From the NCBI GenBank assembly GCA_003645605.1, contig QNAY01000023.1:1-9393 (forward strand): a stretch of DNA of 9,393 bases, written 5' to 3'. Position 1 is the stretch's first letter; every line of letters begins with the position of its first letter. The position numbers and the translations under genes were made by a program. The notes under the pieces were generated by a model. It worked only from the letters and a program-made list of their open reading frames with translations. It searched no databases and was not told the origin of the DNA. Of this stretch, positions 4,299 through 4,730 are shown in pieces. Origin of the DNA: Thermodesulfobacteriota bacterium (GTDB taxonomy: Bacteria > Desulfobacterota > Dissulfuribacteria > Dissulfuribacterales > UBA3076).

Positions 4299-4730
4299 AT
4301 GAACGACTGGGAGCCGAAGATTACGACCTTTCTTTGTAACTGGTGCAGTTACGGAGCTGCTGATCTGGCAGGCGTGAGCCGTTTTCAGTATCCCCCGAAT
4401 TTCAGGATAATCCGTGTACCCTGTTCAGGTCGTGTGAGCCCAAAATTTATATTGGCTGCCTTCCGTCACGGGTCTGACGGCGTGTGGGTATCCGGGTGAC
4501 ACCCCGGAGACTGCCATTACCTGGAAGGTAATTATTACGCAAGAAGAAAATTTGCCCTGTTAAAAGGGCTTTTGGAACATATGGGCATTGAACCCGGCAG
4601 GCTGCATTTCTCCTGGATATCATCTGCAGAGGCGACGAAGTATGTTGATGTGGCGCGGGAAGTGGCAAAAGAAGTAAAGGCCCTTGGGCCTGCGAAACAC
4701 TTTATCAAGAAAAGGGCCGAGGTGGCGTAA
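4299..4730 (+). CDS. mvhD: MvhD/FlxD-type hydrogenase iron-sulfur (delta) subunit, selenocysteine-containing
   Basis: With the TGA at 4497-4499 read as Sec, the frame runs from ATG 4299 to TAA 4728-4730 and gives 143 residues, the normal size of MvhD/FrhD/FlxD. Family signs are FLCNWCSYGAADLAG near the N terminus (about residues 10-24), VPCSGRVSP (about 46-54), DGVWVSGU-HPGDCHY (about 60-74) and a C-terminal helical part rich in Lys and Glu. MvhD carries a 2Fe-2S cluster and hands electrons to HdrA in Mvh-Hdr and Flx-Hdr complexes of the cytoplasm. The ribosome binding site AGGAGA (4288-4293) overlaps the hdrA stop codon, and the ATG follows 5 nt later. The stop overlaps the next start (TAATG). 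Read without Sec it would be a useless 66-residue stub lacking the GDCHY segment and the whole C-terminal half. Confidence 0.93.
4497..4499 (+). other. In-frame TGA read as selenocysteine in MvhD/FlxD
   Basis: The TGA stands where MvhD proteins have Cys in the motif G-C-H-x-G-D-C-H-Y; here the reading is SGU followed by HPGDCHY. The frame stays open and family-like for 76 further codons to the TAA that overlaps the next gene. Sec at this motif is established in Methanococcus VhuD and in deltaproteobacterial FrhD-type proteins. Confidence 0.92.
4516..4532 (+). promoter_or_regulatory. Candidate bacterial SECIS hairpin for MvhD Sec
   Basis: ATTACC (4516-4521) pairs perfectly with GGTAAT (4527-4532); the loop is TGGAA (4522-4526). 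The loop begins 22 nt after the TGA and has G at its second and third positions, matching the bSECIS layout. The spacing is almost the same as for the HdrA element (21 nt), although stem and loop sequences differ. Confidence 0.75.

Follow-up and report, generated by a model that had tools for sequence, protein, structure and literature searches.

A predicted selenocysteine codon and SECIS hairpin in an MvhD/FlxD gene next to an HdrL-type gene of a UBA3076 bacterium

The window (the whole stretch of DNA analysed, 9,393 nucleotides, contig C23 of the source genome) contains a small reading frame with an in-frame TGA at codon 67, which raises the question of whether this codon terminates a short protein or is read as selenocysteine (Sec) within a longer one. 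Ordinary annotation would report a 66-residue stub; the connector between an NAD(P)H module and HdrL would go missing, and electron flow in a likely ANME partner would be misread. The best explanation, to which we give a probability of about 0.93, is that the frame encodes a complete MvhD/FlxD (FlpD) subunit in which the TGA, standing at a conserved Cys, would be read as Sec via SelB and a downstream hairpin; both the translation as Sec and the binding of SelB to the flxD hairpin are predictions made from sequence. The UGA is predicted to be Sec, and not a stop, because a conserved Cys is replaced and because the letters of the hairpin are fixed in close relatives. The features of the locus are collected in Table 1.

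Table 1. Coordinates of the features of the hdrL-flxD locus in the window
Feature	Position	Strand	Details
hdrL-type gene (HdrA with inserted GltD/NfnB-like NAD(P)/FAD module)	3..4289	+	5' end lost at contig end
In-frame TGA, predicted Sec of HdrA motif FPTNDCAMU	33..35	+	sequence, ORF list, HdrA matches
Predicted bacterial SECIS hairpin of hdrL	51..68	+	7 pairs (51-57/62-68), loop AGGU, 22 nt after TGA; fold
flxD/mvhD gene	4299..4730	+	143 aa, Sec (predicted) at 67; PF02662 E 8.9e-54; PDB 5odc_D E 8.8e-50
TGA, predicted Sec codon (GUHPGDCHY)	4497..4499	+	sequence, ORF list, relatives' alignments
Predicted bacterial SECIS hairpin of flxD	4516..4532	+	RNA folding, conservation in relatives
flxC-like 4Fe-4S protein, 316 aa	4730..5680	+	Fer4/Fer4_8; FlxC name inferred from gene order
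flxB-like protein (sulfhydrogenase beta / AsrA type), 345 aa	5687..6724	+	NF040829 E 1.6e-48 (under curated cut-off); PF17179
flxA-like FAD/NAD(P)-binding protein (sulfhydrogenase gamma / AsrB type), 280 aa	6739..7581	+	PRK08345 E 1.1e-69 (under curated cut-off); PF00175, PF10418

A FlpD frame that runs across the TGA

The flxD frame is open when TGA is translated as U, has this single in-frame TGA with 66 codons 5' and 76 codons 3' of it, and ends in a TAA (4728-4730) that overlaps the ATG of the next gene (4730) by one base, an arrangement already described in a previous reading made from the sequence alone. That sequence-only reading also foresaw a 66-residue stub in the absence of Sec, and translation with Table 11 indeed yields a 66-aa ORF. 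Its additional statement that the region after the TGA would look non-coding was too strong, because Pfam finds FlpD in the 3' part by itself (E 1.8e-18).

The Pfam FlpD domain (PF02662) runs straight across the TGA (residues 8-130, profile positions 1-123 of 123) with a score of 181.2 bits against a gathering cut-off of 22.3, so that the whole profile is covered, and each half also matches alone (profile positions 1-59 for the 5' half and 61-123 for the 3' half). The conserved Cys columns of FlpD are 13, 16, 42, 67 and 72; the protein has Cys at 13, 16, 42 and 72 and the TGA at 67, which, as had been claimed, is the Cys of the GCHxGDCHY motif of MvhD/FlxD. Residues 1 to 133 match chain 5odc_D, the MvhD of the archaeal Mvh-Hdr complex, and this chain and those of 7bkb, 9sw2 and 8rvu resemble FlxD over nearly the whole protein and share its cysteine columns, although in the alignments shown all four have Cys where the window has TGA (column 67). 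The VhuD model NF045873 gives 129.8 bits against a curated cut-off of 215, and the protein is an FlpD outside VhuD in NCBI's narrow sense. For FlxD and the three genes that follow, every NCBIfam match is below its curated cut-off, and the names of these four genes therefore rest on similarity, Pfam and gene order.

A frame that opens in this way would also open under any code in which TGA has a sense, and a changed genetic code (TGA read as Trp or Gly) has to be considered. None of the five operon genes has TGA as its terminator, so their stops, although compatible with such a code, give no test of it. The probability of a changed code is nevertheless close to nil, because the TGA stands on a Cys column and not on a Trp or Gly one, no in-frame TGA interrupts the 941 codons of the three genes that follow flxD, relatives lacking the TGA carry TGC or TGT and not TGG or GGN, and tRNA-Sec is present in the genus (see below).

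Conservation of the TGA and of the hairpin

The main comparison set consisted of the best 80 of at least 564 relatives, counted from alignments; 67 of these 80 loci have TGA at codon 67 and the remaining 13 have TGC/TGT, no other stop codon being seen there. In the source genome, three of the five FlpD genes carry one TGA, always at column 67. Besides the source, the genus comprises seven genomes; among the matches listed, six of these hold the TGA form of FlxD, in seven copies that are 92-99% identical. The seventh (G001, 87% complete) shows no such copy among the matches listed, its one FlpD match being weak (E 4.7e-5). A sequencing error, which the sequence-only reading had named as a possible refutation, is excluded in practice because the identical TGA is seen in these seven copies from six other assemblies.

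Bacterial SECIS elements are hairpins lying shortly 3' of the TGA, with a small loop that has a G in its first two bases. The flxD hairpin agrees with this description: it pairs ATTACC (4516-4521) with GGTAAT (4527-4532) around the loop TGGAA (4522-4526), is conserved, and has its loop beginning after a 22-nt spacer (4500-4521) from the TGA. The perfect 6-bp stem and the distance reported earlier are thereby confirmed. RNA folding adds a seventh pair (U4522-A4526), which shrinks the loop from UGGAA to GGA. The 61-nt fold has a z of -1.9, with 6 of 200 shuffles equally good; fold energy alone is weak evidence, and codon conservation was consequently used in its place. An Rfam scan of the window gave no match to a SECIS family; its sub-threshold RNase P match at 1531-1595 was taken as chance.

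The hairpin core ATTACCTGGARGGTAAT (stem letters ATTACC...GGTAAT) is kept in 67/67 TGA loci and 0/13 Cys loci of the best 80 of at least 564 relatives. In a second set (30 loci from 60 genomes, among the matches listed) it is kept in 7 of 9 TGA loci, the exceptions being L032 and L033, and in none of 21 Cys loci. When both sets are pooled, the core is present in 74/76 TGA loci against 0/34 Cys loci, at least 4 of the 110 places being counted twice (L026/L055, L027/L056, L028/L057 and L031/L058). Among pattern-selected and de-duplicated genes, the wobble bases of the codons CAT, TAC, GGT and AAT are invariant in 69/69 TGA genes, with variation in the flanking codons, and in 35 pattern-selected Cys genes these codons occur only 18, 19, 6 and 23 times, respectively. 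Selection on a SECIS element would be expected to leave just such a contrast in synonymous positions, with the proviso that the compared sequences are related and the contrasts between TGA and Cys forms are not independent events. The signature is clear, and it could aid the annotation of Sec-FlpD genes in this group.

Two further explanations are to be weighed against these data. The first takes the TGA as a true stop, in a decayed or prematurely terminated FlpD, or as an assembly error; it agrees with the 66-aa ORF of Table 11 and with the lack of tRNA-Sec and SelD above cut-off in the source genome, but it leaves unexplained why 76 further codons remain open and conserved up to one base into the next start, why 67 of the best 80 of at least 564 relatives, and the seven same-genus copies from six other assemblies, have TGA and never a different stop at this codon, and why synonymous sites of the hairpin are fixed. 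It is already contradicted by the conserved TGA and hairpin and is barely credible. The second accepts the Sec codon and sees the hairpin chiefly as a side effect of conserving the peptide HYLEGN. Uniform recoding of His-Tyr-Leu-Glu-Gly-Asn yields a perfect 6-bp stem in 8 of 384 codings (2%), some loci with TGA at column 67 lack the hairpin, and 5 of the 35 Cys genes meet loose hairpin criteria nearby; on the other side, Cys genes with the same or a similar peptide do not fix the codons, as the pooled counts (with their double-counted places) indicate, which makes this explanation very improbable. Conservation makes the flxD hairpin a non-chance feature, and the interpretation of the TGA as an MvhD/FlxD selenocysteine codon, first proposed from the sequence, is supported by the FlpD match across it, by its conservation, by the hairpin and by the Sec genes found in the source genome and its genus.

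Some Cys forms (L068, L131, L073 and L109) keep many letters of the hairpin and are likely recent Sec-to-Cys conversions. In L068 and L131 nearly the whole hairpin is retained, as expected from recent loss of Sec, and remnants of this kind after Sec-to-Cys loss are described in PMC1794560 (in excerpt).

The source genome is 83.3% complete and divided into 390 contigs. According to excerpts of PMC10553843, JAJSZR is listed as Seep-SRB2 sp. 2 and the Seep-SRB2 genomes given there are placed in genus UBA3076, so that the window likely comes from Seep-SRB2, a sulfate-reducing partner of methane-eating ANME archaea. A host lacking the Sec system, the other refutation named beforehand, is not what was found: the source genome has SelB above cut-off and a SelA fragment that ends at a contig end, and in the genus (8 genomes, source included) tRNA-Sec is above cut-off in 5/8, each of the five loci being called tRNA-SeC (tca) by ARAGORN, SelA is found in 7/8 and a Sec-type SelD in 7/8, each with one in-frame TGA. 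In the source genome itself, tRNA-Sec was not found above cut-off (all 8 matches lie under it, at places where ARAGORN predicts tRNAs for Trp, Leu, Ser and His) and neither was SelD, gaps that fit the incompleteness of this genome. Its best SelD match (53 bits) resembles the second, lower match of same-genus genomes (55-65 bits) and is probably from another family, which we take to be HypE. Two selB matches above cut-off (G000:C18 and G000:C320) occur in this one incomplete genome, either a second SelB or a contaminating contig.

The HdrL-Flx locus and its predicted electron path

The gene upstream of flxD has HdrA domains into which a GltD-like NAD(P)/FAD domain is inserted, and it is followed by mvhD, which makes it HdrL-type: the HdrA2 model NF040770 matches in four stretches (E 1.2e-260, under its curated cut-off), PRK12771 matches above its cut-off at residues 88-586 of the scanned piece, and Pfam agrees with the assignment. 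This gene carries a UGA of its own. Among 44 HdrA matches (duplicates and the window counted), the position of the FPTNDCAMU motif is TGA in 38 and Cys in 6, and a GltD-like motif lies within 400 residues in 14; the exact letters of the hdrL hairpin, CTGGTCGAGGTCGGCCGG, were counted by eye in 29 of 37 distinct TGA rows and in none of 6 Cys rows. Both UGA codons, in hdrL and in flxD, are very likely read as Sec, and the two genes very likely form a pair encoding two selenoproteins, followed by the flxC-, flxB- and flxA-like genes.

A relative of the same genus (L057) has a predicted Sec-HdrA without the insert upstream of a Sec-FlxD. Between window positions 123-1800 and L057 2832-5855, the GltD-like insert is present in the HdrL of the window only, the remainder appearing near identical by eye, unaligned; this difference suggests module swapping by recombination.

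By analogy with distant archaeal complexes, the locus may encode an HdrL-Flx complex that is linked to NAD(P)H, bifurcates electrons and contains Sec twice, once in the connector and once in the flavin subunit. In this scheme, electrons from NAD(P)H would reach FlxD by way of the FlxA/B/C-like proteins and pass on to the putative selenoprotein HdrL, where they would be divided between ferredoxin and a second acceptor, and Sec in place of Cys at position 67 may shift the potential or the reactivity of this relay. The GltD-like insert suggests NADP(H) as the second acceptor. In archaeal MvhD/ElpC, a [2Fe-2S] cluster feeds the bifurcating FAD of HdrA (excerpts of PMC12350162 and PMC6019823).

Several of these elements are known from other systems. 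Excerpts of PMC1794560 (2006) report Sec in FrhD/MvhD and HdrA, clustered in some Deltaproteobacteria, and a table with 19 bacterial Sec members of the FrhD/MvhD family, to which the window FlxD belongs, several Deltaproteobacteria being named; the Sec position is not stated in the excerpted text, whereas here it lies within GUHPGDCHY. In Desulfobacterium autotrophicum HRM2, HdrL1, HdrL3 and mvhD1, 2, 3 and 5 contain Sec (PMC2702500, 2009, in excerpt), and hdrL genes (HdrA/glutamate synthase fusions) are followed by mvhD as in the window, although dsrABC or formate dehydrogenase genes lie near several of its hdrL/hdrA loci, where the window has flxC-, flxB- and flxA-like genes after mvhD. Sec hdrA and mvhD genes with SECIS elements were also described in Desulfococcus multivorans (PMC5109826, in part). 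The FlxABCD-HdrABC system (Ramos et al. 2015, as excerpted via PMC10553843 and PMC6687939) shares with the window an FlxD with FlxA/B/C-like proteins beside an HdrA-type protein; it differs in having hdrB and hdrC beside HdrA and FlxABCD. HdrB/HdrC-type matches were absent from the five operon genes scanned (hdrL is cut by the contig end, and its upstream lies outside the contig), so that this gene set is incomplete among them; in addition, the HdrA of the window has the fused HdrL form, and FlxD and HdrL are predicted selenoproteins. Sec MvhD/FrhD, Sec HdrA and Sec HdrL-mvhD pairs are thus already published, and the present locus adds a well-supported further case.

Beyond the operon, two adjoining short ORFs of 178 and 87 aa lie on the minus strand (8482-9278); by eye they are perhaps a decayed transposase, and a Pfam scan of 8485-9135 gave no match.

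Two selenocysteine columns in bacterial FlpD

The family motif given in a 2026 review (PMC13188914, in excerpt) is CxxU, with two Sec residues and with multiple Sec in some archaeal members, which differs from the GUHPGDCHY of the window; the column-67 motif was not seen in the excerpts consulted of the literature on Sec FlpD/MvhD. An even sample of 297 genomes across the phylum was searched by pattern: the column-16 form (CxxU) occurred in 75 of them and the column-67 form in 86, and a reversed control pattern matched none of the rows. For each form, one gene from each of 30 of these genomes was checked by alignment to FlxD: the 30 column-16 genes all have the Sec codon at 16, with Cys at column 67 in 27 and this column beyond the alignment in 3, and the 30 column-67 genes all have it at 67. 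Only one of these 60 genes (3 assessable in part) has both Sec columns. This bacterial FlpD gene (L234, 1204-1740) carries TGA at Cys columns 16 and 67, each within a Sec motif, and likely encodes a double selenoprotein.

The column-16 genes (L181, L188, L189, L191, L193 and L194-L223) have a different downstream hairpin, ACCUGGCAGGU in some and CUGGAGUUUCCAG in others. Seven of the 30 column-67 TGA loci lack the ATTACC...GGTAAT hairpin, a search limited to loops of 3-8 nt giving no hairpin in L226, L240 and L241 and a 4-bp stem only in L238, L239, L242 and L243; hence either other forms of hairpin exist or some loci are not SECIS-driven. Among the matches listed, 20 hand-picked paralogs with stops have TGA at column 67 in 13 cases and at column 16 in 5, and the other two have it near the C-terminal end, off the Cys columns. 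One of these two, the FlpD of a genus relative (L174, G002:C12:48900-49800), also has an in-frame TAG at position 80, off the Cys columns, a possible case of decay or of other recoding.

We tentatively propose, as an idea with the odds somewhat against it, that Sec in bacterial FlpD is placed at either of two Cys of the cluster region (16 or 67), each with its own hairpin and both in at least one gene, which would suggest that selenium is a direct ligand of the [2Fe-2S] relay or lies at it, tuning the relay's potential toward the bifurcating flavin in a selenoprotein HdrA/HdrL. The occurrence of Sec at two alternative columns of one small iron-sulfur subunit makes the role of selenium in it directly testable.

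From a tree of 104 FlpD proteins (143 columns, 40 of 101 inner branches open), only the broad split was used. In it the seven rows of the genus cluster together (97/84), surrounded mostly by Sec-type proteins from Desulfobacterales and other Deltaproteobacteria MAGs, and the 20 Cys rows from the same order group separately (100/99). Support for the split into a Sec side and a Cys side is 91/86 only, with one Sec row on a long branch (L033) on the Cys side and 13 Cys rows on the Sec side. These placements suggest that the Sec-FlxD of the genus was acquired from another Desulfobacterota lineage or is an old paralogue.
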